DNA of 60,740 bases. Origin: Oscillospiraceae bacterium. GTDB taxonomy: Bacteria > Bacillota > Clostridia > Oscillospirales > Oscillospiraceae. Positions 2,561 to 60,557 of this stretch are shown piece after piece (the stretch's first letter is position 1; the number at the start of each line of letters is the position of its first letter). The stretch lies in contig JAFRQP010000041.1 in the NCBI GenBank assembly GCA_017428565.1, positions 1 to 60,740 of the forward strand, given 5' to 3'. Under the pieces are notes generated by a model. It had not been told where the DNA came from, made no database searches, and saw nothing but the letters and a program-made list of their open reading frames with translations. The position numbers and the translations under genes were made by a program.

Positions 2561-2594
2561 TGCGTTCCCTCCTTGTAGAGTGTGAAACCAACAT

Positions 2595-2665
2595 GTCATT
2601 CTGAGAAAGCGAAGCAAGCGGAAAACGCTGCTTTCATTTTTCGCCGCTCCGCTCCTCGGAATGAC
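2595..2665. repeat. small palindromic intergenic repeat (REP/MITE-like)
   Basis: The gap between the two fructan lipoprotein genes starts with GTCATTCTGAG and ends with CTCGGAATGAC, an inverted repeat bounding about 70 bases. Inside is AAAGCGAAGCAAGCGG, also partly self-complementary to GCCGCTCCGCTC. Sequences with a CATTCTGAG...CGGAATGAC layout are widely scattered non-coding repeats in bacterial genomes. Only one copy is seen in this window, so its repeat nature is inferred from the form. Confidence 0.45.
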
Positions 2666-2678
2666 GGGAGGAGGAAGA

Positions 2679-4853
2679 TTACTTCAGGTTGACAGCGAGC
2701 TGCCAGGGGATGTCCACGGTCTCGTCGGTGCCGCCGTCCTTGACGGTCTCGAAGAGATTGGCATAGTCGGGAGCCTCCTCATAGAAGGTCACGACCTCGT
2801 CGAAGAAGGCGTGAGCCCAGCCGCCCTCGATCACCTCATCCTCCAGGACGAGGTAGAGCTCCTGTCCGATGTACTCGCTCAGATCGATGACGTAGGTGCC
2901 CATGTCGGCCCAGGAGCCGCCGGCCGCCAGAGACGGGAAGTTCTGGTCGGCAAAGCGGGTCTGCCGATAGAGGCCGATCTCGGTTCCGTCAGCCAGGTAC
3001 ACGTGCACTGCGGCCGCGTTGCCGCCCATGCGCAGGGAGATGAAGCCGGAGCCGCCCAGCACGAAGTTGGTGGAGCGGAGCGCCCAGCCGTCGGGCTCGG
3101 GGATACCGGTGTTCCAGCCGTCCAGGTGGAAGTCGCCGCCCTGGTTGTAGGGCAGCTCCTCGCCCCAGTAGCTGACGGCGCTGATGACGCCGGGCAGCTG
3201 ACCCTCGACGGGCGCCCAGTTGCCGGCCACAGGGGTCCAGCCGGCCAGGTTGCCGCTCTCGAAGCCGCCGTTGGCGATGCTGCTGTGGTCGTCCATGGCC
3301 ACAACGGTGAAGCTGGCCTCGGCGGTCTTGCCGTTGAGCTCGGCGCCGTAGGTGACGGTGTAGAAGCCGGGCTCGCTCATGTCGACGGCGGCGGGATCGG
3401 CCACGGGCTCGCCGTTGACGGCGGTGATGGCCACCTCCACAGCCTCTCCGCCGTAGGTCGCGGCAGCGTCGGCCACGAAGGCGGTGAGATCCACGGTGCC
3501 GCAGTCAATCACCTGGTTCTCCGCGTAGGCGGTGAAGGTCAGGGACTCCAGAGGCACGGGATAGGGATAGTTGCTGTAGTAGTTGCGCAGGCTGGTCAGA
3601 TCGTCATAGGAAGCGGAGGTGTAGGTCTCGTTCTGGATCTTCTCCATCTGCTCGACCTCCAGAGCCGCGACCTCGTCACGGGTCAGGGAGACGCGGAAGT
3701 CGTCCACGTTGATGAAGGCGAAGCCGCCGTTGGAGCCGTCGTTGGCGTCCACGACCTTCAGGTAGACCACGCGGCCCAGGTACTCGCTGCCGTCGATGTA
3801 CACGCGCAGCAGGGTCAGAGCCAAGGCGGGATCGCTGAAGTACTCGTTCTCGACCTTGATGAGCTCTTCATCGGTGTTGCCGTCGCACAGGGCCACATAG
3901 GAGCCGCCGTTGCCGGAGCCAATCATGAAGCTGATGTAGCCGTCGCCGCCCAGGGTGAACTTACTGGAGCGGATGGCGCCGGTCAGATTCTCCTGGATGG
4001 CGCCGTTGTTGCTGCCGTCCAGATAGTACTCGCCCTCGCCGTAGACGGCGCGGTCGCTCCAGTAGTACTGGCTGGTGGGCACGATGGCCGCGCGGGAGAG
4101 CGCGGTGCCGTCCAGAATGACCCAGCCGCTCAGGTCGCCGGACTCAAAGCCGGGGTTCTGGATCTCGTTGGAGGTCTCGTCCTCCACAAAGGGCTTGGGA
4201 CCGAACTCCTCGATCTGGCGGGCGTAATCGGCCTGGGCCGCCGCGACCTCGTCGTCGTTCTGGCAGACCTTGAAGGCGTCCACATTCAGATAGGAGAGAT
4301 CGCTGCCGTCGTCGTTATCGGTGATAACGATGTAAATGTTCTTGCCCTGGTAAGCGGACAGGTCAACCACCTTGGTCAGCAGGTGCTCGGTGATGTAGAC
4401 GCCGTCGCAGTCCTCATTGACCACATGGGCGATAGGCGTGTCGTTGCCTTCCTCAAAGAAGTCCACAAAGCACTTCTCGGTGTCCTTGCCGCCGCCCATC
4501 TTGAAGGTGATGAAGCCGTTGCCGCCCAGCTTGAACACATCGGAGGTCAGCGTGCCGCGCATGGGGGGATTGCCGCCCACGGTGCCGGCAAAGTAATACT
4601 CGCCGGACTTCTCCATGACAACGCCGGCAACCTTTTCCTGGTTGGTCACGCCGCGGAAGTTGAAGGCCGCGTCATGGCGGGTCCAGCCGACCCACTGACC
4701 CTCGCTGACTTCCTCGAAATCGCCGTTGACGATATCGTCGGCGCCAGCGGTGCTGCCGGCGGTCTCGCCGGAACCCTCGCCGCAGGCGGCAAGGCCAAAG
4801 ACCATGCTGAGGATCAGCAGAGCAGAGAGCAGCTTCAGAATACTCTTTTTCAT
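2679..4853 (-). CDS. three-repeat surface lipoprotein, putative fructan-binding
   Basis: Predicted lipoprotein of 724 residues with no recognised catalytic domain. The start at 4853 gives a signal peptide with lipobox (LSMVFGLAAC) and an AAAGGA ribosome binding site; the longer open frame upstream is basic and lies across the operator. Three diverged copies of one beta-sandwich-like module are visible. Each opens with N-G/P-G/D-FE (IVNGDFEEV, IQNPGFESG, IANGGFESG), continues with GW, a GxFYLDG/DFHLDG element, LGGxGFISxxMGG and ends in VDxF/FDEV. An Ig-like domain of about 85 residues lies between copies two and three. Similar modules occur as accessory domains in large secreted GH32 enzymes, so a role in holding levan or inulin at the cell surface is inferred. 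It is transcribed from the operator-bearing promoter at 4987-5015 and sits upstream of the secreted GH32. Confidence 0.75.
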   Translation of the reverse strand: MKKSILKLLSALLILSMVFGLAACGEGSGETAGSTAGADDIVNGDFEEVSEGQWVGWTRHDAAFNFRGVTNQEKVAGVVMEKSGEYYFAGTVGGNPPMRGTLTSDVFKLGGNGFITFKMGGGKDTEKCFVDFFEEGNDTPIAHVVNEDCDGVYITEHLLTKVVDLSAYQGKNIYIVITDNDDGSDLSYLNVDAFKVCQNDDEVAAAQADYARQIEEFGPKPFVEDETSNEIQNPGFESGDLSGWVILDGTALSRAAIVPTSQYYWSDRAVYGEGEYYLDGSNNGAIQENLTGAIRSSKFTLGGDGYISFMIGSGNGGSYVALCDGNTDEELIKVENEYFSDPALALTLLRVYIDGSEYLGRVVYLKVVDANDGSNGGFAFINVDDFRVSLTRDEVAALEVEQMEKIQNETYTSASYDDLTSLRNYYSNYPYPVPLESLTFTAYAENQVIDCGTVDLTAFVADAAATYGGEAVEVAITAVNGEPVADPAAVDMSEPGFYTVTYGAELNGKTAEASFTVVAMDDHSSIANGGFESGNLAGWTPVAGNWAPVEGQLPGVISAVSYWGEELPYNQGGDFHLDGWNTGIPEPDGWALRSTNFVLGGSGFISLRMGGNAAAVHVYLADGTEIGLYRQTRFADQNFPSLAAGGSWADMGTYVIDLSEYIGQELYLVLEDEVIEGGWAHAFFDEVVTFYEEAPDYANLFETVKDGGTDETVDIPWQLAVNLK

Positions 4854-4952
4854 ATTTGCATCCTTTCTTTTTCGTGTTTTTTTGGTTTGCTTTGACAGAG
4901 GTTTTGCGAGGCTTTGCGGGGAAGATTTGGTTTGCTTTGGTTGGGACTTGCG

Positions 4953-5015
4953 GTTCAAAATAACGTTTCACGAGGAATGCGATTTTAGTATAAAGTCCGT
5001 GGGAATCCTTGTCAA
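4953..5015 (-). promoter_or_regulatory. sigma-A promoter with LacI-type operator for the fructan lipoprotein genes
   Basis: On the minus strand the -35 is TTGACA (5010-5015) and the -10 is TATACT (4987-4992), with 17 bases between them. Just past the expected start of transcription lies TCGTGAAACGTTATTTTGAA (4954-4973). Almost the same sequence, with one extra A, lies at the transporter promoter (9936-9957). An operator at this place would block the promoter when the regulator is bound. Confidence 0.8.
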
Positions 5016-5115
5016 GAAAGAATTCAAAGTGCTGAAACAAACTGTGCTTTTTCATTAAAGAAGGGAGTATGATTTGTGCAAAATACCTATTATATGTGCG
5101 TGCCACTTTATTTCG

Positions 5116-5136
5116 CGAATGTGAAACGATATTTCA
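5116..5136 (+). promoter_or_regulatory. candidate distal operator for the LacI-type regulator
   Basis: The sequence AATGTGAAACGATATTTCAA matches the core GTGAAACGTTAT of the main operators with one change. It lies about 160 bases upstream of the operator at 4953-4973, a spacing at which LacI-family tetramers could loop DNA. It may also be a weaker or non-functional copy. Confidence 0.45.
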
Positions 5137-5150
5137 AGACTGGTTTCCGC

Positions 5151-5191
5151 AAAAAAACCGCGCTCCGCTCGGTATCACCGATCGGAGCGCG
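5151..5191 (-). terminator. intrinsic terminator of the fructokinase operon
   Basis: A 9-bp GC stem (CGCGCTCCG at 5159-5167 with CGGAGCGCG at 5183-5191) contains a smaller inner hairpin and, read on the minus strand, is followed by seven T. It lies just after the fructokinase stop codon. Confidence 0.85.
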
Positions 5192-5210
5192 ATTATGTGG
5201 GGCTGCGGTA

Positions 5211-6146
5211 TTATTTCATTTCTGCCAGCGTGGGCATGGCGGGGATGGCGCCGTGCCGGCTGGTGGTGATGGCGGCGGCCTTGTTGGCGAAGCGCAGGAT
5301 ATCTTCCAGCTCCTCCGCCGTCAGCGCGTCCAGACTCTCCGCCCGGACGAGCCTGGACAGAGCTGCGCCGAAGAAGGTGTCGCCGGCGCCGTTGGTATCG
5401 CCCACCTGGACCTTGACGCCGGGCACATGGCCGATCCTGCCGCCGAAGCGGTAGAAGGCTCCCTCGGCGCCCAGAGTCACCAGCACGAGGCGGATGCCCT
5501 TCTCGGCCAGTCTTGCGCTGCCCCGATCGGGATCGCTCAGCCCGGTCAGCAGGGGCAGCTCCTCGTCGGAAACCTTCAGAATGTCCACCAACGGCAGCGG
5601 CTGCAGCATCTGCCGCACAGCCGTGGCCTCGTCGGGCCAGAGACTGGCGCGGTAGTTGGGGTCGTAGCTGATCAGAGCGCCCTTTTCTCTGGCTTCCCGG
5701 GCCGCCTTGAGTGTGGCGCTGCGGGAGGGCTCAGCCGTGAGGCTGACGGAGCCGAAGTGCAGCACCCGGGTATCCGCCAGCAGCTCCGCCGGAACGTCCT
5801 CGAAGCGCAGATTCACGTCGGCGCTGGGGTCCCGATAAAAACTGAAGCTGCGCTCGCCCCCTTCGTCCAGAGACACGATGGCCAGCGTGGTGTGCTGCCG
5901 GGGATCCACGCTGAGCCCGGAGACGTCCACGCCGTTCTGCTCCAGGGTGCTTCGCAGGAAATCGCCGTAGCTGTCCCGGCCCACCCGGCCGATGAAGGCG
6001 GTCTTGGCGCCCAGACGGGAGGCGGCCACGGCCAGGTTTGCCGGCGCGCCGCCGGGGTTGGCGTCGAAGCGGGGGATGCCCTGCTCCGTACGCCCGGATT
6101 GGGTCAGGTCAATGAGTATTTCGCCGATGGCAGTGATGTCAGTCAT
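5211..6146 (-). CDS. scrK: PfkB-family fructokinase
   Basis: Cytoplasmic sugar kinase of 311 residues, predicted to phosphorylate free fructose with ATP. The PfkB family signs are clear: an N-terminal GEILIDL strand, the GGAPANLAVAASRLG signature, and near the C-terminus the DTNGAGDTFFGA motif holding the anion hole and catalytic Asp. Length is normal for the ribokinase/fructokinase family. It is the last gene of a six-gene minus-strand chain headed by the LacI-type regulator, overlaps the preceding gene by 8 bases, has a GGAGG site and is followed by a strong terminator. Fructokinase rather than another sugar kinase is inferred from two GH32 genes nearby; the fold alone would allow 2-keto-3-deoxygluconate or another hexose. 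Confidence 0.88.
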   Translation of the reverse strand: MTDITAIGEILIDLTQSGRTEQGIPRFDANPGGAPANLAVAASRLGAKTAFIGRVGRDSYGDFLRSTLEQNGVDVSGLSVDPRQHTTLAIVSLDEGGERSFSFYRDPSADVNLRFEDVPAELLADTRVLHFGSVSLTAEPSRSATLKAAREAREKGALISYDPNYRASLWPDEATAVRQMLQPLPLVDILKVSDEELPLLTGLSDPDRGSARLAEKGIRLVLVTLGAEGAFYRFGGRIGHVPGVKVQVGDTNGAGDTFFGAALSRLVRAESLDALTAEELEDILRFANKAAAITTSRHGAIPAMPTLAEMK

Positions 6147-6669
6147 GGGATGCGTCCTCCTTTTGCGCTTGTTCGATCAGCCGCAGAACGGCCTCTTCCG
6201 TGCCCTTGGTAAAGGCGTCGTGCCGGAGCATGACGCCGGTTTTGTCTTTCGTGATCAGCAGCAGGAGATGCTCTGTGTGCAGGCAGTCCGCGATCTCTCC
6301 GTAGGGGAGACTGCGCAGCTTGCCTTCCACCTCCACCTCCAGATGGTCTTCCAGAAAGCGGGTCAGGCGCTGGGCCTGGGCTGTGCCGGCGTTTTCCATG
6401 GCCTTGTAGGCCCGCCGGGTCTTGCTGCGTGGCAGCAGCACCGCCAGCCACAGGGACACCGCCGCCAGCACCGCAAATTCCATCAGCATATAGGACAGAC
6501 TGCCGCTCTGCCACAGGGTCCAGGCGCTCAGCGCAAGCCACAGCAGGGCCAGGAGCAGCAGCGCGGTTTTCAGGCTTTTCCGGTAGTATTCCCGGGAGAC
6601 GCGGCGCATCCCCTCATAGAACAGTTCCTTGCTCAGCGTGAAGCGGTTTTCCGCGATGCATTCTCTCAT
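6139..6669 (-). CDS. YcxB-like membrane protein
   Basis: Protein of 176 residues with two adjacent hydrophobic segments (about residues 31-50 and 54-74) and a soluble C-terminal half resembling the YcxB-like C-terminal domain (LRSLPYGEIADC, then a hydrophobic LLLLITKD strand). Function of the family is unknown. The ATG at 6669 is preferred because it overlaps the stop of the upstream gene as ATGA and the extra N-terminal residues of the longer frame are a shadow of that gene. It lies inside the regulator-to-fructokinase chain, so it is presumably made when fructan is used. Confidence 0.65.
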   Translation of the reverse strand: MRECIAENRFTLSKELFYEGMRRVSREYYRKSLKTALLLLALLWLALSAWTLWQSGSLSYMLMEFAVLAAVSLWLAVLLPRSKTRRAYKAMENAGTAQAQRLTRFLEDHLEVEVEGKLRSLPYGEIADCLHTEHLLLLITKDKTGVMLRHDAFTKGTEEAVLRLIEQAQKEDASHD

Positions 6670-7439
6670 TCCTCGATCCTCCCGGGGAATTTCTCCTCGA
6701 TCTGCTCCTCCACATGGAAGTCTTCGTCCAGCTTGGGATAGATCAGGTGCAGGGCCACAAAGAGGACGTACCACAGCCCGATGATGGGAACGAGGAAGGC
6801 CGTCCAGGGCAGAAAGAGCACGATTACCGCCCACCAAAGCATCTGCACCAGGGCGGAGAGCAGTGTTTTGCCGAAGTGGAATATGCAGAACAGAAGGGCG
6901 TTTTTCACTTGCTGCAGCGCACGCTGCTCAAAGAGAACCACCTGCGCCCACCAGACGGTCAGCACCATGGTGGCCAGAACGACCGAAAAGCCCAGCAGCA
7001 GCAGGGTCCCCGGGGTGAGCGGCGCCGCCATCATTTCGATCAGCGCGATGATGAAGGTGACCATGGCCAGCAGCAGGCCCTGCACCGCGCCGGGCAGCAG
7101 GGAAGCCTTCCAGTTCTGCCGCAGGGCGCGCTTCCAGCAGAAGCTCCAGTCGTCCTGATCGTTGCGCAGCCGGCGCAGGATCAGATCCACCATACAGGCG
7201 TAGCCCGGCCCGGAAAACGCGCCGCCCGCAAGGCCGGCCAGGATGGCAAGCAGGGCGCTTTTCGTGCCCACCGCGTAGACAAGCCCCGCCCCCAGGGGAA
7301 TGATAAAGACCAGGGTGATAAAGCCGACCTTGATGAAATCCTTCCAGTTGCCCTCCAGCACTTCCCGATAGCGGGGGAAGCCCCCCTTCCGCACGCCGGG
7401 GATGACCCGATCGTCGTCCCCGCCAAGAAATAGACCCAT
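6666..7439 (-). CDS. YesL/DUF624-like integral membrane protein
   Basis: Predicted polytopic membrane protein of 257 residues with about five or six hydrophobic segments, two of them near the N-terminus (LVFIIPLGAGLVYAV and an AILAGLAGGAF stretch). The pattern FSGPGYACMVDLILRRLRNDQDDWSFCWKRALRQNWK resembles, in part, the DUF624/YesL family that is often found beside carbohydrate ABC transporters; for length reasons only the start F-S-G-P-G and the W-KR-L motif should be taken as evidence. The role of the family is not established. It starts 9 bases after the lipoprotein gene stop and ends overlapping the YcxB-like gene. Confidence 0.6.
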   Translation of the reverse strand: MGLFLGGDDDRVIPGVRKGGFPRYREVLEGNWKDFIKVGFITLVFIIPLGAGLVYAVGTKSALLAILAGLAGGAFSGPGYACMVDLILRRLRNDQDDWSFCWKRALRQNWKASLLPGAVQGLLLAMVTFIIALIEMMAAPLTPGTLLLLGFSVVLATMVLTVWWAQVVLFEQRALQQVKNALLFCIFHFGKTLLSALVQMLWWAVIVLFLPWTAFLVPIIGLWYVLFVALHLIYPKLDEDFHVEEQIEEKFPGRIEE

Positions 7440-7448
7440 TCCTCGCTC

Positions 7449-8030
7449 CTATTCTCCGTAATGGATTCCGTTCAAAAACTGCTCCAGGATCGCCTGGGGA
7501 TCCCCCGCGAAGTCCTCTGAGCACAGCAGTTCCGCGCTGATTGCCAGACCGTCTCGGACCGCAAAGGCGGCCGCGCCGTGGGTATAGGGGTTTCCCTCCC
7601 TGCCCGACAGCAGGGGATAGGAGGCGAAGGACTGCCCCGCGGCGTCCAGTTCCCGGCGGTCTCCCATGGTGTAGTTCTGCCCCTCCCGGGCCTCCCAGTC
7701 GCGAACGTTGGCCCGGGCCTCCGCCTCGCTGCCGCATTCCTTCAGCACCAGGAAGAGCTGCGCGTCGTAATAGACGATCTCCTCGCCTTCCTGTTCGCCC
7801 GGCAGAGTTTTGGGCTCGTCTCCGCAGTTGAACATCACGTACCAGATCCCCTCGGGGGACAGGACGTCGTTATATTCTCCCAGCGTGAAATCCGCCGGGG
7901 TCTCCATGGCCATCAGATTTCCGAAGCGCAGCCAGGCCTCCGGCCACTCCGGATGGAGGTCCGCCTCCGGCTCGCCGCAGCCGGCAAGCAGCAGCGTCAG
8001 GAGCAGCAGCCCGATCCAGATCCTCTTCAT
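7449..8030 (-). CDS. small lipoprotein of unknown function
   Basis: Protein of 193 residues starting with a short signal peptide and lipobox (LLLAGCGE), so likely anchored outside the membrane. The rest is mixed alpha/beta without a motif I recognise; an internal PYTHGAAAFAVRDG segment and a C-terminal Glu-rich end are the only notable points. The ATG at 8030 overlaps the stop of the upstream gene (ATGA), which supports this start over the one ten codons earlier. Translational coupling with its neighbours suggests that it works with the membrane proteins of this chain. Confidence 0.6.
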   Translation of the reverse strand: MKRIWIGLLLLTLLLAGCGEPEADLHPEWPEAWLRFGNLMAMETPADFTLGEYNDVLSPEGIWYVMFNCGDEPKTLPGEQEGEEIVYYDAQLFLVLKECGSEAEARANVRDWEAREGQNYTMGDRRELDAAGQSFASYPLLSGREGNPYTHGAAAFAVRDGLAISAELLCSEDFAGDPQAILEQFLNGIHYGE

Positions 8031-8719
8031 CGCGTCGCCCCCTCGGTCATTCGCTCCCACAGGAGCTCGTTTCCGCGCTGTGCCTCGGCCTCCCGCTCTG
8101 AATAGAAGCAGCGGCGGCCCAGATACAGGTTTTCAAACGGCGCCGGGTCCAGCTCAAGCGCTGCCAGCGCCGGACAGTCGCCCCAGCGATAGACCTTGTC
8201 CATAGCCTCGTAATCTTCGTCCTCCGGCGGGCTCCCGTCGTCCCGGGCATAGATCTGATAGGCCAGCTGTACGCCCTCCGGGTCCTCCGTCAGGAACAGA
8301 TAGCTCTCGGCCTGGGTGATGTCCGCCATCAGCTCCGTGTTGGCGGCATAGTTGTAATAGACCACGCTGGCCGGGTCGCCGCTGCGATTGACGGCGTACT
8401 GCCGCAGCTCCACCACCACGCTGCCGTCCCCGTTGCGGTCCTCAGCCAGGGGAGCGAGGGCAAGCTCAAAGGCTCTGGCGGCCTCCTCCGGGATGGGATC
8501 GCGGCCGACATAGGCCACGATCACGTCCGGTTTTACCTGCCCGATGCCCAATACGTTCCAGAGCATGCTGCCCACGATCCACAGCAGCACCGCCCCGATG
8601 ATCAACCAGAGCTTGTTGTAGTGCAGCCAGTTGAGCAGCTTTTCCTTTTTGGTCCGCTCCCGCGGAGGCGGCGCGGGCTTTTCGTCCCGCGCCTTCCATT
8701 TCAGGTATTCGCTTGCCAT
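8027..8719 (-). CDS. single-pass membrane protein of unknown function
   Basis: Protein of 230 residues. A basic, Pro-rich N-terminus (residues 1-36) precedes one transmembrane helix (about 37-57, LWLIIGAVLLWIVGSMLW). The remaining 170 residues are probably outside the cell and look like a globular alpha/beta domain containing an EDRNGDGSV segment that resembles a calcium-loop. I recognise no family. It begins 3 bases after the regulator gene and overlaps the next lipoprotein gene, so it is part of the fructan regulator operon. Confidence 0.6.
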   Translation of the reverse strand: MASEYLKWKARDEKPAPPPRERTKKEKLLNWLHYNKLWLIIGAVLLWIVGSMLWNVLGIGQVKPDVIVAYVGRDPIPEEAARAFELALAPLAEDRNGDGSVVVELRQYAVNRSGDPASVVYYNYAANTELMADITQAESYLFLTEDPEGVQLAYQIYARDDGSPPEDEDYEAMDKVYRWGDCPALAALELDPAPFENLYLGRRCFYSEREAEAQRGNELLWERMTEGATR

Positions 8720-8722
8720 GGC

Positions 8723-9715
8723 TCACTCCCGTGTGGTCCCGCCCCAGCCGTAGCTGACTGGAAGGCAAATGAGCGCCGGCGCGTTCTCGCCCCGGGGGGA
8801 GAGAACCAGCTCTACACAGTTGGCGGCAATGGCCTCCAGCGGCTGCACAATGGTGGAGCAAGTGTATTCCAGGTCGCCGAAGTGCCGCACCCCGTCGAAG
8901 CCGATGATCTGCACGTCCTCCGGGACGCGCAGCCCCATGTGCTGCGTCAACGCGCCGCGGATCACGTGTGCCATCGAGTCCGTCACACAGAAAATACCGT
9001 CAAAATCCAGCTTTCCGTCGTGGAAATGCTCTTCGAGGAATTCGAAAAAAGCGGTATACGGCGTGCCGTCGTCGATGATCTTCAGCGTATAGGGCACGTC
9101 AAGCGCCTCACATCCGGCGATAAAGCCGTCCTTGCGTTTGTTCGGTTCATTGGTGAGCTTGGAGCCGATGCGCAAAAAAGCAAGGTTTTTGCATCCGTTC
9201 TCCACCAGCTTCTCGGCGGCAAGCCTTCCGCCGCCGTAGTTGTCGCTGGCCACACAGGGGATCTGCGCGCCGAAATAGCGGTCGATGGAAACCAGCGGCA
9301 CATCCGGCGAGACCTGCAGATGGGGATTGTAGCTCAGACAGATGATGCCGTCCACCTTCTGCTGCTCGGCCAGATGAACCAGCTCCTGCTCCTGGGCCGG
9401 ATCGTAGTCCGTGGCATAGAAGAGCATACGGTACTTGCGGGCTGAGAGCTCATGATTGATGCAGTTTACCAGCTTGGAAAAGAAGGGGCTGATCAGATTC
9501 GGCACCATCACGGCGATGGTATAGGTCTTGTTGCTGCGCAGCCCTCGGGCGTAGCTGCTGACCCGGTAGTTGAGCTTTTCGATGGCCTTTTCCACCCGCA
9601 GGCGGTAATCCTCGCCAACGGGCAGGCCGTTGACGACCTTGGAAACGGTCCCCAGGGCGACGCCGGCCTCCCGGGCCACATCCTTCATGGTGGGGACGCT
9701 TTTGCTTTCGGACAT
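8723..9715 (-). CDS. LacI-family transcriptional regulator of the fructan locus
   Basis: DNA-binding repressor of 330 residues. The N-terminal helix-turn-helix is typical (TMKDVAREAGVALGTVSKVV) with the hinge helix around residues 50-62, followed by a periplasmic-binding-protein-like sensor domain with IAVMVPNLISPFF at its first strand. It is predicted to sense a fructose-derived sugar and release DNA. It has a strong promoter (9764-9792) flanked by two operator-like sites, so it is probably self-regulated, and is the first gene of the chain ending in the fructokinase. The divergent transporter operon and the lipoprotein promoter at 4987-5015 carry the same operator, which defines its likely regulon. 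Confidence 0.9.
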   Translation of the reverse strand: MSESKSVPTMKDVAREAGVALGTVSKVVNGLPVGEDYRLRVEKAIEKLNYRVSSYARGLRSNKTYTIAVMVPNLISPFFSKLVNCINHELSARKYRMLFYATDYDPAQEQELVHLAEQQKVDGIICLSYNPHLQVSPDVPLVSIDRYFGAQIPCVASDNYGGGRLAAEKLVENGCKNLAFLRIGSKLTNEPNKRKDGFIAGCEALDVPYTLKIIDDGTPYTAFFEFLEEHFHDGKLDFDGIFCVTDSMAHVIRGALTQHMGLRVPEDVQIIGFDGVRHFGDLEYTCSTIVQPLEAIAANCVELVLSPRGENAPALICLPVSYGWGGTTRE

Positions 9716-9743
9716 AGGAGGACCCTCCCGATTTCATGAAATG

Positions 9744-9815
9744 GAGTGAAACATTACACGGACAGTATAAGCGGTTCCCTCGGATTTGTAAAGGGTTTCG
9801 CGAAACGTTTTCATC
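9744..9815 (-). promoter_or_regulatory. promoter of the regulator operon flanked by two operators
   Basis: On the minus strand the -35 TTTACA (9787-9792) and -10 TATACT (9764-9769) are 17 bases apart. One operator-like site, GTGAAACATTACAC (9746-9759), covers the transcription start; it is nearly symmetrical. A second, TTTCGCGAAACGTTTTCATC (9796-9815), abuts the -35. Their positions fit autoregulation by the LacI-type protein. Confidence 0.78.
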
Positions 9816-9899
9816 CGGCAAATCACCCAAAAAAGAGAGCCTGTCTTTGGCTATTCCGGCAAAAATACGATTTGTTCTCTCTATAACCGGAATTTTTTA

Positions 9900-9957
9900 T
9901 TGACGGAAAGCCTTGCTTTGTGCTACTTTTATTATGTTCAAAAATAACGTTTCACGA
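9900..9957 (+). promoter_or_regulatory. promoter and operator of the transporter operon
   Basis: A TTGACG -35 (9900-9905) with an 18-base spacer leads to a weak TACTTT -10 (9924-9929); TATTAT at 9930-9935 is an alternative -10 with a long spacer. Directly downstream is the operator, read on the minus strand as TCGTGAAACGTTATTTTTGA (part of 9936-9957), nearly identical to the one at 4953-4973. The leader then runs about 110 bases to the permease start. Confidence 0.7.
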
Positions 9958-10068
9958 AGCTCGAGGCTGCGGATCACAGGCTGGTGACCCGGATCCGGAG
10001 ACGAGGGCGAAACCCCGCGAATCCAGCAAATCCACTGAGAAAATTGAAGAAAAGGAGGGATCCTCTGC

Positions 10069-11040
10069 GTGAGTTCCTTGGCAGAAAGCAAAGTGCTTGA
10101 AACGCCTAAGAAAAAAGCGCCGAAGAAGGCGCCGCCTCACGGAAAAACCCTGGGCCGCAGAGTTACGGAGAACTGGCAGCTCTATCTGATGCTTGTGATC
10201 CCGGTGGTCATCACGATCATCTACAAGTACATCCCCATGTACGGCATTCAGATCGCTTTCCGTGATTACAAGGCAGCGCAGGGCTTTTTCGGCAGCAAAT
10301 GGGTCGGCTGGGAGTGGTTTGAACGTTTCTTCAGCAACCGCAACTTCGGCCGCATGATCGAAAACACCATCAAGCTGAGTGTTTACGGTCTGCTCTGGAG
10401 CTTCCCGGTGCCCATCATCCTGGCTCTGGCCATCAACCAGATCCGCTTCAAGCGCTACAAGCGCGTCGTTCAGACCGTTCTGTACGCCCCGCATTTTATC
10501 GCCATCATGGTCGTCTGCGGTATGATCCGCATTTTCCTCAGCCCCAACGGCGGCCTGATCAACATCCTCTTCAACAGCGCAAATCCCGTGGACTATCTGA
10601 CGGAGCCAGGCGCCTTCCGCACCATCTACATCGCTTCGGGCATCTGGCAGGACGCCGGCTGGGGCACCATCATCTATCTGGCGACCCTGTCGGCGGTGGA
10701 TCCGGGCCTCTATGAGGCCGCCAAGATCGACGGCGCCTCCATGTGGCAGCGCATCCGCGTCATCGATATCCCCGAGCTGATCCCCATGATCGTGCTGCAG
10801 CTCATCATGGCCGCCAGCGGCATCATGAGCGTCGGCTTCGAGAAGGTCTTCCTGCTGCAGACAGAACTGAATAAGGCGACAAGCGACGTCATAGCCGTTT
10901 ACGTGTACCAGCAAGGTATCGAAAAACAGCAGTTCAGCCTGTCGACGGCGGTGGGCCTGTTCAATACGGTCATCAACGTGATCCTGCTGATCGTGGTCAA
11001 CAAGATCGCCAAGAAGGCCGCGGACGTCAGCTTTGTGTAA
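10069..11040 (+). CDS. sugar ABC transporter permease, LplB type
   Basis: Membrane component of 323 residues of a CUT1-type importer, predicted to carry fructo-oligosaccharides. A GTG start is used, preceded by AAGGAGGG at a good distance. A Lys-rich N-terminus precedes six hydrophobic segments. The cytoplasmic EAA loop, which contacts the ATPase, is clear (EAAKIDGASMWQRI). The N-terminal half (QLYLMLVIPVVITIIYKYIPM, MYGIQIAFRDY) is typical of LplB/YteP-like permeases for complex sugars. It is first in the operon with the second permease, binding protein and intracellular GH32. No ATPase gene is nearby, so a shared MsmK/MsmX-like ATPase elsewhere is inferred. Confidence 0.92.
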   Translation: MSSLAESKVLETPKKKAPKKAPPHGKTLGRRVTENWQLYLMLVIPVVITIIYKYIPMYGIQIAFRDYKAAQGFFGSKWVGWEWFERFFSNRNFGRMIENTIKLSVYGLLWSFPVPIILALAINQIRFKRYKRVVQTVLYAPHFIAIMVVCGMIRIFLSPNGGLINILFNSANPVDYLTEPGAFRTIYIASGIWQDAGWGTIIYLATLSAVDPGLYEAAKIDGASMWQRIRVIDIPELIPMIVLQLIMAASGIMSVGFEKVFLLQTELNKATSDVIAVYVYQQGIEKQQFSLSTAVGLFNTVINVILLIVVNKIAKKAADVSFV

Positions 11041-55054: not shown

Positions 55055-57508
55055 TCAGCGCAGGCGATGTTTTATCAGAATACTCTCCGCAGGGTCGTCC
55101 GCGGGGCGAAAAACGCTGACATAGCCCTGCAGTGCGGATGCCTTGGTGCGCAGGTTGCGGGAGCGTCCGTCAATGTAGATGTCGCACTTCTCCCGTCCAT
55201 TTTTCGCCTCCTGCACCAGATTTGCCGCCGCGCTGTTCCCGTCAAAGGCCAGCAGCACGGAGGGGCGGCGCTTGAAGATCTCATAGGCGAAGCTTTTGTA
55301 CAGGCCCAGCATGGTGGGCTCGATGGAGATGCGCACGGACACGCCGCTCTGGACGATCCGGTCCCGCTCCTTGGCGCTGATCATGCTGGGGACGATGGCA
55401 AAAACCTCGAATTTGCCCTTGTTCTGCTCCAGCAGGTAACGCTCGAAGCCGGAGACGGAGCTGCCGATGACAAAAAAGAGCTTTTCGGGATCGGCCTCGT
55501 CCAGGAGCTTGTCCAAGATCTGCCGCCCCTGGGAGCGCAGGCGGGTGATGTGGCGGTCGTTGTTGAAGCTGCCTCCGGCAAGTACGATGGGCAGCTTTCC
55601 CGCCGGCAGCTCCCGAATCTGCGCGGCCAGGGCGATCTGGGCATCAAGCTTCCCACTGTTCACCCAGAGTGCCTCGCTGGCTTTTTCTGTTTCCTCGATG
55701 CGCACGGAGAGAAAGTCTCCCACGTCCCTCCCGTCGAGCAGGCGGTCAAAGACCTCCGATTTCTCACAGAAGATCCGTCTGCTGCCTTCATCGATCCGTC
55801 GATCGTGCCTGCGCATCAAGCAGAGCTCCTCATAGCTCAGATCCAGCAGCTTTTCCAGGCTCAGCTCCTCTTCAATGGGATCTGTACCGTATAGAGCGCA
55901 GCCGTCCGTCCCCTGGACGCAGAAGACGCCCGCGCGCAGATAGGTTTTCAGCGGGTGCAGACCGGGATCGGTGAGGTTGTTCAGCCGTACGTTGGAAGTG
56001 ATCTGAAATTCCAGCACCACTTCGTTTTCGATCAGCTCCTGGATGAGCTTCTGCCCCTTGGGGCTGCGCAGATCGGCAGCGTAGAGTCCGTGGCCGATGC
56101 GCAGGTGGGGCATTTTCTGCCCGGGCGCGAGGGATTCCCGCACCAGACGGACGCTGTTGGCCACGTTGTTCCGCAGACTGTCGTTCTCGCCGGCGTGGAT
56201 GCGGATGACGAAGCCCGGATCCAGCGCGGCGATCCGTACCAGCTCCCGGATCACGGGGCGCAGCTCGAGAATATCGTTGATCTCTTCACCCAGAATGTCT
56301 CCGCCCGCCACATAGGGATCAGCCGCCACGGCCCGCAGCACCTGCAGATTCTCGGCCAGGTAGTCGTTGGGGGTCACGGCGTCCTTGATGATGGTCAGAG
56401 GCACCCGGCGGATGCCCGCCAGGAAGCGGATCAACACGCCGGTTTCCCGGGTAACGGCGGGCATAACAGCGTGGATCTGCCGCAGGACTTCAACCGACTC
56501 CTTTCTTTTCACCAGGGAGGTGTCGGAGATCTCCACATAGTCGATGCCGCAGCGGGCGTAGGAACGGGCGATCCACAGGAGTTTGTCCTGGAAGAGTGTG
56601 TTGTTCCGGTAGTCCGGGTCCGCCCGGTCCGCCAGGATGCGGGCGCAGATGCGCAGCACGTCCGGCTCCGGGATCTCCTCCAGCCGCCGCAGGGAAAAAG
56701 GCTCCTCCGAGGGTACGCCCTTGGTGAAGACGTAGCGGTACAGATAGACCTTCTCCAGATTGGCAAAGACCGCCTGGCCGTCCTTGGGGATGGTGAGGGA
56801 GTTGCGGATCTGGACGATGTTCCAGGCGGCGTCCTCCAGATTGCCAAGAATCAGCTCGGCAAAATTTAGAAAAGTATTGTCGTCGATGCGGCGCTCCAGA
56901 TACTTGCCCGTCAGGGCGGAGTCTTGAAAGCGGCAGGCCACCAGGGCCCGCTGGGTCTCCAATCGGCTCCGTTGCTCCTCCGTGCAGCGCAGACCCAGCT
57001 TTTTGATGTAGTACAGAGGGTAGCGGATCTGGTGCATGATGCCCAGGGCGATCAGAATGTCGGGGGAGAGGTTGGCGTTCATGTGGGTGTGCAGATCGGT
57101 GCGGAACTTGGCCTCGCTGCGGATATAGGTCTTCACGATGGTGCGCATCTCGTCCAGACGGTAGTCCTTGGTCTGGCTCATCAGCGTTTTGGAGATAGCG
57201 GGGATGGAGGCCTTCAACTCGATGTTCCCGTCGGGCCAGATGTTGGCCACCTTGGTGTTGCCAAGGCGGAAGATGAAGAGCTGCCGCGCCTGCCCGTCCA
57301 CATAGCTGGGGACGATGCCGCGGATGACCTTCAGCCCCTGCTCGTCCTCGCTGATGGGGAGCTTGCACAGCCTGGCCAGATTCGTGATCAGATTTCCGCT
57401 GTGATGGTTGGGCGTGCGCAGCACATAGTGCAGACCGTCCTCCTCCTGGCTCAGATCGACCACGATATCCTTTTCCTTATCCAGATAAAAATGACCGAAA
57501 TTCGTCAT
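55055..57508 (-). CDS. adenosine-deaminase-like protein with C-terminal Rossmann/SLOG-like domain
   Basis: Cytoplasmic protein of 817 residues with an unusual layout. Residues 1-130 are a beta-rich part that I do not recognise. The centre carries the deaminase metal-site motifs in order: DLHTHMN (H140, H142), IHAGEN (H438, E441), RIGHG (H473), ITSN and GTDG (D535). In deaminases the last is normally TDDP; the second Asp, which contacts the purine, is Gly536 here. About 300 residues separate the first two motifs, far more than in simple adenosine deaminases. Residues about 638-817 look like a nucleotide-binding Rossmann fold (IVLAGGSFNND, FFVIGSSVSGFERYLLE, VFAIVPSMIS). Large deaminases of this size include RdrB of the RADAR phage-defence system, but no ATPase partner is adjacent. 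It is last in a run with an Ntn-type hydrolase 48 bases upstream; AGGAAAGGAG precedes the ATG. Confidence 0.72.
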   Translation of the reverse strand: MTNFGHFYLDKEKDIVVDLSQEEDGLHYVLRTPNHHSGNLITNLARLCKLPISEDEQGLKVIRGIVPSYVDGQARQLFIFRLGNTKVANIWPDGNIELKASIPAISKTLMSQTKDYRLDEMRTIVKTYIRSEAKFRTDLHTHMNANLSPDILIALGIMHQIRYPLYYIKKLGLRCTEEQRSRLETQRALVACRFQDSALTGKYLERRIDDNTFLNFAELILGNLEDAAWNIVQIRNSLTIPKDGQAVFANLEKVYLYRYVFTKGVPSEEPFSLRRLEEIPEPDVLRICARILADRADPDYRNNTLFQDKLLWIARSYARCGIDYVEISDTSLVKRKESVEVLRQIHAVMPAVTRETGVLIRFLAGIRRVPLTIIKDAVTPNDYLAENLQVLRAVAADPYVAGGDILGEEINDILELRPVIRELVRIAALDPGFVIRIHAGENDSLRNNVANSVRLVRESLAPGQKMPHLRIGHGLYAADLRSPKGQKLIQELIENEVVLEFQITSNVRLNNLTDPGLHPLKTYLRAGVFCVQGTDGCALYGTDPIEEELSLEKLLDLSYEELCLMRRHDRRIDEGSRRIFCEKSEVFDRLLDGRDVGDFLSVRIEETEKASEALWVNSGKLDAQIALAAQIRELPAGKLPIVLAGGSFNNDRHITRLRSQGRQILDKLLDEADPEKLFFVIGSSVSGFERYLLEQNKGKFEVFAIVPSMISAKERDRIVQSGVSVRISIEPTMLGLYKSFAYEIFKRRPSVLLAFDGNSAAANLVQEAKNGREKCDIYIDGRSRNLRTKASALQGYVSVFRPADDPAESILIKHRLR

Positions 57509-57556
57509 AGAAGCTCCTTTCCTCCCAACACAGGCTTTTCCGGGACTTGTCTATGC

Positions 57557-58255
57557 TCACGCCTCGCCTTGCGAGAATCGCTGCATCCTGATCTTGTCCC
57601 ACTCCCGGTTTTCGCACCAGAACACCGTTCGCTCTCCCAGGTCGTAGACCATGGAGACCACCGTGGGGCAGACGGTCTGGGACACCTGGCGCAGCACCGC
57701 AAAGCAGTCGTCCACGTCAAAGTCGTCCCCGGCCTTTTGCAAAAGCTCCTCCGCCTTCTGATACCGGTCCCAGCCCATCCAGGGGTGGGTCTCGGCGTTC
57801 CGCTTGAAGGGGGAGAAGTTCGTCAGGATCTTGTACGGGGGCTTTTCGTAGTACAGGCACCCCTGGCCGGGCACGATGTGCAGCACGTTTCCCTCCCGGT
57901 CCGAGAGCGCGGCCATGAAGGTCAGCCCCGGCACGCTGCAGACACGCTCCCGCTCCGCGATGGCCCGGGTCTCCTGCAGGCTCCGTTTCTGCAGCAGCAG
58001 GTCGATATCAAGCTCGATGATGTTCCGGCTCCCTTCGCAGGGGTCGCTGCGCCGGTCATAGGGCCAGCAGGTGGGCATACCCACGAAATCGCCCCTGGCG
58101 TTTGCACCGAAGAGTGGCATCCAGCCCTCCGTGGCGTCGTTGACTTCGATATACACGCCCTCCGGCGTGCTGCGGACCCGGTGCTCCATGTCCAGCAGAT
58201 CCAGATTCCAGCCCACCAGGGTTTTCTTTTTGTTTACGACAAGGCTTGTGCACAT
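57557..58255 (-). CDS. N-terminal-nucleophile amidohydrolase (choloylglycine hydrolase-like)
   Basis: Protein of 232 residues starting MCTSLVV, so that removal of Met exposes Cys2, the expected nucleophile of the linear amide C-N hydrolase / acyltransferase fold. Further family features are LVGWNLDLLD (Asp/Arg region) and a later Asn-rich ILTNFSPF. It is shorter than bile-salt hydrolases (about 320) and nearer to the C45-type group. The substrate is unknown. AGGAG lies well placed before the ATG. It lies between an unknown gene (30 bases upstream) and the deaminase-like gene (48 bases downstream). Confidence 0.72.
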   Translation of the reverse strand: MCTSLVVNKKKTLVGWNLDLLDMEHRVRSTPEGVYIEVNDATEGWMPLFGANARGDFVGMPTCWPYDRRSDPCEGSRNIIELDIDLLLQKRSLQETRAIAERERVCSVPGLTFMAALSDREGNVLHIVPGQGCLYYEKPPYKILTNFSPFKRNAETHPWMGWDRYQKAEELLQKAGDDFDVDDCFAVLRQVSQTVCPTVVSMVYDLGERTVFWCENREWDKIRMQRFSQGEA

Positions 58256-58285
58256 GGTGATCTCCTGCTTTCCTTCTGCGTCAGT

Positions 58286-58729
58286 TCAGCAGATCCATTC
58301 AAACTCCACGAAATCGATCATAGCATCCAAAATGATGGTGTCGTGCAGATATAGCTTCGTGATGATGGAGCAATACCCGACGTTGTGGTACAAGTATTCC
58401 AATGGTTTCTTGCCTTCGGCAAGCTTCGGCAGCACATAGTTTTTGAGCCGGATATAACGACCGTCTATGTTAAAGAGCCTGGAAAGAAGCCGATTTGGCT
58501 TGACCCATTTGTAAAGGGAATAATCATCCGGGTCATCGGCAAAATGATATCGGATGATCAGAGATTTGGCGTCCGGCTTATAGAATCGGATGGAATCACG
58601 TTCGGAAATGTTGTCCTCAAAATGAAATTCCAGGCACTGATCCTTCAGAAGGATCTTCTTGATGACGCAATCGTGGGGCACGGGTATGGTCGGCAGGGAA
58701 TCTCCGTTCAGATAGTATGTTTCCTTCAT
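58286..58729 (-). CDS. protein of unknown function
   Basis: Cytoplasmic protein of 147 residues, rich in Tyr, Asp and Lys. It resembles a beta-sandwich or barrel with segments VIKKILLKDQCLEFHFED and IIRYHFADDPDDYSLYKW, and a C-terminal MIDFVEFEWIC that is typical of small uncharacterised proteins found near acetyltransferases. No family is recognised. The ATG at 58729 has AAGGAG; the longer frame reads into the neighbouring gene. Lower G+C than the housekeeping genes. Confidence 0.7.
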   Translation of the reverse strand: MKETYYLNGDSLPTIPVPHDCVIKKILLKDQCLEFHFEDNISERDSIRFYKPDAKSLIIRYHFADDPDDYSLYKWVKPNRLLSRLFNIDGRYIRLKNYVLPKLAEGKKPLEYLYHNVGYCSIITKLYLHDTIILDAMIDFVEFEWIC

Positions 58730-58793
58730 GCATTCTCCTTCGTTTCTGTCTTGCACGGGAAGCGTCTGTGCTGCAGTCTCGCTGAAGCGTGCG

Positions 58794-59276
58794 TTAGCGG
58801 CGCAGTTCCATATACACATGCTCGTCTGTACGGTCGTACTCGATGAAACCGCATTTTTGATAGACGTGGATGGCCCTGCTGTTTTGGGGATCAGTCCTTA
58901 GGACGATTCGTTTCAGTCCAAGCTGACGACCGGCGAATTCCGCAAGGGCCGAAACTGCCTCCGTCCCATAGCCTGCGTTCTGCTTGGCTGCTGTGATGGC
59001 GATGCCGAGCTCGCCTACATCGTGCTTAACATCCATCAGCTCGATGTTTCCGATAAACGCCCCGCCGGTCTTTTCGAGCATCGAGAAGACCATAGCCTTC
59101 TCCCGCAGTTTTTCATGGATCCATTCAAGTTCCTGTTCCGCAGTAAAAGTCTTGTGCTTGCCGCCGATGAAGCGGTTGACGTTCTCGTAATCATTCACGA
59201 GGATAAGATAATCGTTTACGAGCCGCTCCGACACCTCAACAAAACGAATGCGGCTCGATTCAAATACCTGTTTCAT
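58794..59276 (-). CDS. GNAT acetyltransferase, RimJ/RimL type
   Basis: Acetyltransferase of 160 residues. The acetyl-CoA loop reads QNAGYGTEAVSALAEFAGRQ and is followed by LKRIVLRTDPQNSRAIHVYQ and KCGFIEYD, the typical end of RimJ/RimL-like enzymes. Substrate unknown. GGAGGCAAGG precedes the ATG at 59276, supporting it over the ATG seven codons earlier. It follows the methyltransferase gene by 25 bases. Confidence 0.82.
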   Translation of the reverse strand: MKQVFESSRIRFVEVSERLVNDYLILVNDYENVNRFIGGKHKTFTAEQELEWIHEKLREKAMVFSMLEKTGGAFIGNIELMDVKHDVGELGIAITAAKQNAGYGTEAVSALAEFAGRQLGLKRIVLRTDPQNSRAIHVYQKCGFIEYDRTDEHVYMELRR

Positions 59277-59301
59277 CCTTGCCTCCACAAAGCGCAATGT
59301 A

Positions 59302-60084
59302 TCATTCTTTTTGGAGGACGTCCAGCGTGTGGTGAGAAGCCCCGATCAGATCCTGCCGCTCGCAGATCGTAAAGTGATAGTCCATCCATTTGTCAAAGGT
59401 CTCATCGTCCATGGCGTCGATATACTCTCGCATATAGTTTGTCGCGCCGTCTGTGGCAACCAGCTTGATCCTTCTGACAGGGACCAGAGAATCCAGCTCC
59501 GCGATCTCTTCTGTGCGCACCATCTCAAATATATCCTTCGGTTCGCTGATGCAGTGCCAGTCCGCGGTCAGCATATGGAGATCCATGAGCTCGTGCAGCT
59601 TGTTCATGCCGAACACATACTGGATGACGGTCGGCTCGTTCATGCAATATGCCACCAGGATATGACCGCCGGCCTTTGTCACACGCACGGCCTCGGAGAG
59701 CGCCCCCAGTTTCTCTTCCTTCGTGTAGAGGTGATACATCGGGCCGAGGAGCAGGGTCAAATCAAAAGTAGCATCCCGGAATCGGGACAGGTCCAGCGCA
59801 TTCCCTTGTACGGCCGTGATCGCTTCCGTGCCATCCAATTTGGATTTCAAGATTTCCAGGTTGTGTTCCACCAGCTCAACTGCCGTCACCCGGAATCCCT
59901 GCTTTGCCAGAGTTACGCTGTATCGTCCCGTGCCGGCTCCCACTTCAAGGATGACGGGGTCTGCAATATCTTTCAGACACGCTGCTATGGTTTTCATCGT
60001 GGTCAGGTATTCCACCTGGCCGTGACGGGAAAGAAGACGGCCATCCTCGTCGTAATGCTTGTAATGTTCTTCCAGATAATTCAT
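59302..60084 (-). CDS. class I SAM-dependent methyltransferase
   Basis: Methyltransferase of 260 residues. Motif I is ILEVGAGTGRYSVTLA, followed by VTAVELVEHNLEIL, QGNALDLSRF and DLTLLLGPMYHL (motifs II-IV). The C-terminal 100 residues are probably a substrate lid. Substrate unknown; small-molecule methyltransferases of this type are common in clostridia. It overlaps the upstream GNAT gene by 4 bases (ATGA). Confidence 0.85.
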   Translation of the reverse strand: MNYLEEHYKHYDEDGRLLSRHGQVEYLTTMKTIAACLKDIADPVILEVGAGTGRYSVTLAKQGFRVTAVELVEHNLEILKSKLDGTEAITAVQGNALDLSRFRDATFDLTLLLGPMYHLYTKEEKLGALSEAVRVTKAGGHILVAYCMNEPTVIQYVFGMNKLHELMDLHMLTADWHCISEPKDIFEMVRTEEIAELDSLVPVRRIKLVATDGATNYMREYIDAMDDETFDKWMDYHFTICERQDLIGASHHTLDVLQKE

Positions 60085-60557
60085 GGTTTTTCCTCATAAA
60101 GCGGGATTTGTGCCGATAATTCCTTCACCATATACCGCGGCGCATATTCGGCGTATCCATGCTTCGGGTAGAATGAATAGGACTCAAACCACTGTTCCGG
60201 CGGATCGCCCAAATGTACCCGTGCCGTCGTAATGCTGTTGTCGCGCATTCCCGCCTCGATCGTTTCAAGCAGAGCCGATCCGATGCCTTTGCGCTTTTCG
60301 GACGCCTTTACGTACAGCCGATGGAGAAAGGCTTCGTTCGTTCCTTCGATCCTCGAATACCCGCCGCAGCCGATCACCCGGTCATCCTTGTCCACCGCGA
60401 TCCAGAACAGATCCCCTCGGTCATAATAATGCTTCCGGATATCAAGCAGATCTTCATTGATCCTCGGTATCCGCCCAAGCGCGTCCTTGGCCTGTAAGAC
60501 CATGAAGATCATATCATCCCTGTATTTATCTTCGTAACATTTGATTTCCATGTTCAT
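60081..60557 (-). CDS. GNAT acetyltransferase
   Basis: Acetyltransferase of 158 residues. The fold is marked by WIAVDKDDRVIGCGGYSR, then the acetyl-CoA loop ASEKRKGIGSALLETIE and a C-terminal FYPKHGYAEY. Substrate unknown. The ATG at 60557 lacks a strong site; an ATG two codons later (60551) is equally possible. First complete gene of the minus-strand run that leads into the deaminase-like gene. Confidence 0.82.
   Translation of the reverse strand: MNMEIKCYEDKYRDDMIFMVLQAKDALGRIPRINEDLLDIRKHYYDRGDLFWIAVDKDDRVIGCGGYSRIEGTNEAFLHRLYVKASEKRKGIGSALLETIEAGMRDNSITTARVHLGDPPEQWFESYSFYPKHGYAEYAPRYMVKELSAQIPLYEEKP

Follow-up and report, generated by a model that had tools for sequence, protein, structure and literature searches.

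The adenosine deaminase (ADA) relative Cad1 relies on a messenger made by CRISPR, and RADAR relies on an ATPase partner. As excerpted from 1 account of Cad1, TaqCad1 has D296 replaced by Asn and D19 by Gly, converts ATP to ITP, and shows no adenosine deamination (PMC12669630), and excerpts of a second study report conversion of ATP to ITP, with no significant activity on adenosine, AMP, and dATP (PMC11645235). RdrB, the deaminase of RADAR, is described as a dodecameric shell that turns ATP into ITP (PMC9994260). SLOG is described as the sensor of the Thoeris protein ThsA, a SIR2-SLOG protein (PMC12948488), and PpnN as an alarmone-gated purine enzyme (PMC6717881). Here, we analyzed a stretch of 60,740 nucleotides from an Oscillospiraceae bacterium (GenBank assembly GCA_017428565.1, contig JAFRQP010000041.1, positions 1 to 60,740; hereafter, the window), in whose list of open reading frames (ORFs) the frame at 55055–57508 on the minus strand encodes an 817-aa protein with a predicted ADA barrel and a C-terminal SLOG-like domain. 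The reading that we tentatively favor, at somewhat less than even confidence, is that this protein is a resident, single-gene, SLOG-gated deaminase of 5'-phosphorylated adenine nucleotides.

Relatives were collected by a pattern search of a genome collection, which gave at least 596 stretches, at least 544 of them encoding a relative. The best 80 of the 544 were kept as loci, and the main alignment comprises 65 rows, namely, the window and 64 of the 80 loci, with 16 loci omitted to limit the size of the set. The initial annotation, made from the sequence alone, had described an 817-residue protein with the ADA motifs in order and a long insert between the first 2. Both features were confirmed, with HTH at residues 140–142 (57083–57091, minus strand, as for all features of this gene), HAGE, providing a zinc His and the catalytic Glu, at 438–441 (56186–56197), IGHG at 471–474 (H473 at 56090–56092), and TDG at 534–536 (55901–55909), and with 296 residues between H142 and H438. 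In mouse ADA, the spacing from HxH to the second motif is about 197 residues. In E. coli RdrB, the corresponding H154–H498 spacing is given as 344 residues (PMC9994260).

In the predicted model of the whole protein (mean pLDDT 87, pTM 0.82), a beta-rich N-terminal region of approximately residues 1–135 (57104–57508), recognized from its secondary structure and of unassigned fold, precedes the ADA barrel at approximately residues 136–570 (55799–57103). The barrel includes a helical insert of approximately residues 171–310 (56579–56998), placed between HxH and the remaining barrel, and is followed by a variable helical linker (residues 571–634, 55607–55798) and a SLOG-like Rossmann domain of approximately residues 635–800 (55109–55606). 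The N-terminal part, barrel, and SLOG domain are all strongly conserved in the alignment, where a mean of 0.778 of rows agree over residues 1–130; mean conservation is 0.678 in the insert, with 26 invariant columns, and 0.414 in the linker, with zero invariant columns. At the level of the predicted model, a large enzyme made up of an ADA barrel with a long insert, an N-terminal part, and a C-terminal SLOG-like domain is thereby established.

A_deaminase was the sole Pfam family in the protein, matching residues 314–561 (E = 7.4e-13, 48.7 bits vs. a cut-off of 27), and matches to the NCBIfam adenosine-deaminase models fell far under their cut-offs. Among PDB sequences, all phmmer matches up to E = 1 were ADAs (9 distinct sequences), the best stretches covering the second half of the barrel. 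PDB ADAs also ranked first when the full model was compared by Foldseek, with Cad1, the Helix pomatia AMP deaminase, and ADA2 matched as well. These matches had TM scores of ~0.25–0.36 by query and up to 0.75 by target at root-mean-square deviations of 6–15 Å, and a low query value with a high target value is as expected if the barrel alone aligns. Structure prediction had been proposed as a check on the deaminase assignment, and the model does contain a deaminase barrel whose best PDB matches are ADAs.

The residues H140, H142, H438, E441, H473, D535, and G536 were identical in all 65 rows. A TDD- or SDD-type motif was seen in 0 of the 65 aligned rows and GTDG in 65, so that the altered purine contact, proposed initially because the second Asp of TDD is Gly, extends to every aligned relative. 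Beyond this point, the Asp equivalent to D19 is likewise replaced, since residue 144, which lies 2 positions after H142 and corresponds to mouse ADA D19, is Asn in 58 rows and Ser in 7. The correspondence of the D19 and D296 places was drawn from motif spacing together with the excerpted account of Cad1 (PMC12669630). With the HxH, HAGE, GH, and TD residues on a predicted TIM barrel, the protein belongs to the adenosine deaminase superfamily, and it lacks the Asp residues at the D19 and D296 places of canonical adenosine deaminase (EC 3.5.4.4). Because the zinc site is conserved and complete, the enzyme half is probably active; judging from the replaced residues, it is probably not an adenosine deaminase. 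The match was free of stops in 80/80 loci, and 3 of the 48 own-genus genomes (G496, G499, and G500) had a single in-frame stop within it, which may reflect gene decay or errors in assembly.

Around EFQITSNVRLNNL and QGTDGxALYGT, the pocket motifs are almost invariant and differ from those of ADA. These motifs, along with the origin of all loci whose titles give a host or organ from ruminants and their kin, speak for an enzyme that deaminates or hydrolyzes a modified or non-adenine nucleotide, such as a damaged base, an aminopurine, or a pterin-like gut or rumen compound. We consider such a substrate highly improbable, as the general ADA machinery is complete, including the HAGE glutamate, and comparative evidence offered no support for any compound of this kind.

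The C-terminal 212 residues were modeled alone using the same 65 proteins, and the resulting AlphaFold2 model (pLDDT 92.9, pTM 0.89) gave the nucleotide-binding-like domain noticed in the initial annotation a SLOG-like predicted fold. Foldseek identified 10 PDB matches at E ≤0.001, namely, the Moco carrier (3), H. pylori DprA (4), ShosA, TRPM4, and YgdH, all of which we take to be SLOG members or kin, and LOG and LOG-like proteins were the next matches at E ~0.002–0.02. GGSF and YKS were found in 65/65 rows and DGNS in 59/65. By sequence, a Pfam scan of the C-terminal set gave weak Toprim-like and scattered matches, the commonest being Toprim_2 (15/65, best E = 0.0055), and the C-terminal profile had 3 weak matches among PDB sequences (E ≥0.43). 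LOG-type catalysis by this domain was rejected, as PGGxGTxxE, given as the LOG motif (PMC6717881), was missing in 65/65 rows. From the predicted model, we infer that the C-terminal domain is a ligand-binding SLOG domain. A SLOG profile searched against 291 genomes of the class had 8 matches, counting that in the own genome, each within an open frame of 783–869 aa, and in that search the domain was never found apart from the deaminase.

One of these 8 matches, L137 (positions 8226–10577, genome G1140), is a distant relative of 783 aa that aligned with the family by hhalign at a probability of 100 (E = 1.4e-45, 27% identity, 689 columns). The 2 are colinear, with the same order of parts and with TDG and the zinc residues retained, and in a local alignment, L137 has the shared letter at 103 of the columns in which 62 or more of the 65 rows agree. 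Its SLOG domain is plainer, with glycine loops nearer the textbook form; in Pfam, L137 matched A_deaminase (E = 1.3e-21) and LSDAT_prok (SLOG in TRPM, prokaryote; E = 0.0069, 16.1 bits, under the cut-off of 25.4). This colinearity suggests that the ADA-SLOG order predates the window's branch. An L137-type protein was present in 1 of the 98 genomes of its family, namely, its own (a 1.2-Mb genome), and no relative of L137 was found on phages or plasmids, the viral-contig scans using short patterns that can miss relatives. The PADLOC CARF_ADA model matched L137 at E = 5.5e-17 and stand-alone ADA-sized frames at best 2.3e-62, which points to superfamily similarity in L137; special closeness to Cad1 was rejected, as this model scores the stand-alone frames better.

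The barrel, the SLOG-type domain, and the altered purine contacts make a nucleotide-sensing deaminase plausible, and this part of the initial interpretation stood, whereas kinship to RdrB beyond the ADA superfamily and partnership with an adjacent Ntn hydrolase were not supported. In the mechanism that we propose, the ADA barrel, in which the residues and predicted fold are seen, would hold the zinc site and deaminate a purine base by hydrolysis. The replacement of both Asp residues that contact adenosine suggests that the enzyme would act on an adenine nucleotide bearing a 5' phosphate (AMP, ADP, ATP, or one of the deoxy forms) rather than on adenosine. The SLOG domain, without a LOG motif, would most likely bind a nucleotide-type ligand, and this ligand may switch the barrel on or off via the helical linker and the N-terminal region. 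As no linked messenger-making gene was seen, the ligand would probably be a general alarmone or nucleotide already present in the cell, a choice of general intracellular ligand over dedicated messenger that the solitary position and near-core presence in 1 genus also favor. With such a ligand, the enzyme would respond to stress, be it starvation or infection, by moving the purine pool from A toward I. The protein would work like Cad1, as a sensor plus an ADA, with SLOG replacing CARF at the opposite end of the protein.

Several points weigh against this SLOG-gated nucleotide deaminase. The choice of substrate draws on 2 residues and 1 analogue, and an AMP-preferring ADGF is described in excerpts as retaining the catalytic residues of adenosine-preferring ADGFs (PMC10358891), so other pocket features also determine specificity. 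In the window, the C-terminal domain matched 0 Pfam families and no SLOG family by sequence, its PDB matches are of modest strength (best E = 1e-4, TM by query ~0.5), and the usual SLOG glycine loops are altered in the window's branch. In addition, the patchy presence in the own genus also fits a transferred defense gene.

Matches at E = 0.001 were identified in 29 of 99 genomes (own and related), with 27 of these within the own genus and the 2 others (E = 3e-4 and 6e-4) spanning roughly 100 residues in the region of the ADA motifs. The gene is carried by 48 of 102 genomes of the own genus (12 of the 34 good genomes), by 27 of 295 genomes in the order of G240 (5 of 129 genera), and by 2 of 398 genomes sampled across the phylum, own genome being 1 of the 2. 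Record titles of the relatives include Clostridia, Oscillospiraceae, Lachnospiraceae, Erysipelotrichaceae, and others, many of them from ruminants, and in a quick tree of the 80 loci and the window, the 8 Erysipelotrichaceae rows need 3 changes, although a single origin may hold. In genus g36, the gene is near-core, being found in 45 of 61 genomes and 31 of 35 good genomes. No relatives of the window protein were found in viral contigs, plasmids, or phages (the viral-contig scans are pattern-based and can miss relatives), and carriage by a phage or plasmid was rejected. Since the gene has a guanine-cytosine (GC) content of 0.604, close to that of the window (0.605), is near-core in g36, and had no relative in those collections, a resident gene is the best reading of the sequence data.

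Such a pattern would also suit a purine-salvage enzyme with a regulated housekeeping role, for example, a bacterial AMP deaminase turning AMP into IMP, with SLOG as an allosteric sensor of energy or alarmones. The g36 carriers have 1 match in 42 of 45 genomes and 2 in the other 3, all 3 major parts of the protein are strongly conserved, AMP deaminase is among the fold matches, and a canonical ADA (>200 bits) was identified in a mere 7 of 102 own-genus genomes (it occurs in 7 of 61 g36 genomes, with stop codons in 2 of these frames). We nevertheless judge a housekeeping role to be rather unlikely, given that the gene is rare in the phylum and was not found in about half of its own genus, that no purine genes were recognized adjoining it, and that in mouse ADA the change of Asp296 to Asn severely impairs binding and catalysis, as cited in the excerpted Cad1 account (PMC12669630).

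A role in stress or defense is what we infer for the protein, and the patchiness outside the near-core genus leaves room for defense. As a single-gene phage-defense effector, it would pass a nucleotide signal of infection through SLOG to the conversion of (d)ATP to (d)ITP and to growth arrest, like RADAR and Cad1, and we regard this as unlikely, though far from negligible. ShosA, a defense protein akin to DprA, is among the SLOG fold matches, and the gene is patchy in its own genus. Near-core presence, as in g36, would generally be expected to be unusual for a mobile defense gene, and no relative was found in the phage and plasmid collections. Both well-studied ATP-deaminating relatives are described as defense proteins (PMC12669630, PMC9994260, PMC11645235), and SLOG is described as the sensor of Thoeris ThsA (PMC12948488). 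The window protein itself had no PADLOC match, and TIR genes showed no association with it (35 of 48 genomes with the gene vs. 33 of 54 without, Fisher p 0.29), with no TIR domain found in the own genome (84% complete); a TIR/Thoeris partnership was rejected.

The surroundings of the gene bear on the same question. We scanned 137 neighbor proteins (135 distinct) of 83 loci, from 219 candidates, and they are mixed and mostly ordinary genes in Pfam, as judged from the 25 of 154 families listed. A few match PADLOC defense models (mad8 in 5, mad3 in 3, and pVip, LmuA, and a DRT-type reverse transcriptase in 1 each; 25 of 34 families listed), and no defense model recurs in more than 5 of the 137 among the matches listed. 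A neighborhood survey, proposed as a check in the initial annotation, accordingly gave scattered PADLOC matches and no conserved linkage of homologues to defense genes or to the Ntn hydrolase. Clustering of the ORFs around 81 loci revealed no partner that recurs next to the gene. The most frequent cluster, seen in 15 loci and by eye ABC-ATPase-like, never came within 400 bases of the gene, and among the families listed, none lay that close in more than 3 of the 81 loci. A simple longest-frame rule was used to call these ORFs, and some are shadows of real genes. Across the 17 loci from other genera (9 from g36, 6 from g370, and 2 others; L128 and L033 are one place), near relatives have part of their context in common but no gene is general. 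In 2 of the closest relatives, L021 and L022, leuS is located near the gene.

The neighbor proposed as a partner is an Ntn-hydrolase-like (C45-like) protein of 232 aa that starts with Met-Cys (57557–58255, minus strand), identified by a weak NCBIfam match to C45 (E = 3.7e-5, 23.2 bits, cut-off 85), with Pfam yielding nothing above cut-off. The window's 5 same-strand upstream genes were searched in 127 loci, representing 107 distinct gene copies, own included. An Ntn hydrolase stood beside 0 of the 106 other distinct copies, and outside the own locus, only the methyltransferase of the 5 genes was matched (L004); 13 of the 107 copies had less than 3.1 kb of total flank, and absence of neighbors is least certain for these. 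GC content also separates the stretch 57557–60557 (0.538) from the deaminase gene (0.604), and the C45-like neighbor is probably unrelated to the deaminase system, the GC gap making the hydrolase stretch look like a later arrival. On the minus strand, 57557–60557 forms a small accessory gene cluster (C45-like hydrolase, unknown protein of 177 aa, GNAT, methyltransferase, and GNAT), at GC 0.538 vs. 0.605 for the window.

Comparison with RADAR used as a control the RADAR locus of the same genus in genome G523 (L103), which matched the RdrB model at 1.8e-37 and the RdrA model at 1.5e-10. The window protein matched 0 PADLOC families up to E = 1, RdrB models included, and against the control RdrB, the BLAST E-value was 0.16 and the hhalign probability of the family 2.6%. 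On these values, membership in RdrB was rejected, and kinship to it is not supported beyond the ADA superfamily. RdrB was not among the best 50 of 71 Foldseek matches at E ≤0.001, and an RdrA ATPase was not among the window neighbors. Like the window protein, RdrB is described as a large ADA that is extended at its N terminus (HxH at 152–154 in E. coli RdrB and 140–142 in the window protein) and has an insert between HxH and HAGE (PMC9994260). The window protein differs in having SLOG, TDG instead of SDD, no adjacent RdrA, and no long insertion past the last His (62 residues from H473 to D535), with sequence similarity limited to short motif stretches; by inspection, the control RdrB has a long stretch after the GH motif and SDD instead of TDG. 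The control locus itself (573–7498 of G523:C17) encodes an RdrA ORF of 916 aa and an RdrB of 854 aa, preceded by an unassigned ORF of 662 aa overlapping the beginning of the longest RdrA frame. The same genus also has 499- and 484-aa proteins (L104, 4333–5832; L105, 4033–5487) with a signal-peptide-like start and ADA motifs, which are possibly secreted ADGF-like deaminases.

Canonical ADA and AMP deaminase share the zinc site and catalytic Glu with the window protein, which differs from them in its TDG instead of TDD, its Asn or Ser at the D19 place, and its 817 aa. PpnN/YgdH and LOG have the fold of its C-terminal domain by Foldseek; the LOG-like domain of PpnN is a catalyst, whereas PGGxGTxxE is absent from the 65 rows of the window family. 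ThsA, as excerpted, likewise places an enzyme and a SLOG sensor in a single chain (PMC12948488), but the enzyme is another one and the window family has no TIR association. An ADA-SLOG fusion was not named in the titles or abstract openings from our literature search.

It is possible, though we consider it less likely than not, that these proteins form a new family of signal-gated purine deaminases that work as stand-alone proteins, a "Cad1 without CRISPR," in which SLOG would read a messenger or alarmone without an adjacent synthase and turn on deamination of ATP (or AMP), serving as a one-gene switch for stress or immunity that is widespread in Firmicutes of the gut and rumen. If true, controlled nucleotide deamination would be a more general control point, exercised by a single-gene ADA-SLOG protein encoded in at least 544 stretches and near-core in 1 genus, with both substrate and ligand accessible through simple assays on 1 protein. 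Cad1 itself, as described, resembles the window protein in fusing an ADA barrel to a Rossmann-like sensor and in having both adenosine-contacting Asp residues replaced (PMC12669630). No PADLOC CARF model matched the window protein, and cas genes were not recognized among the listed families of the general neighbor scans, in which no search aimed at cas10 was made. The window protein differs from Cad1 in that its sensor is SLOG and not CARF and lies at the C-terminal, opposite end, with an extra N-terminal region and barrel insert. By analogy, the best reading is that it carries the sensor-fused deaminase plan of Cad1 with a different sensor.

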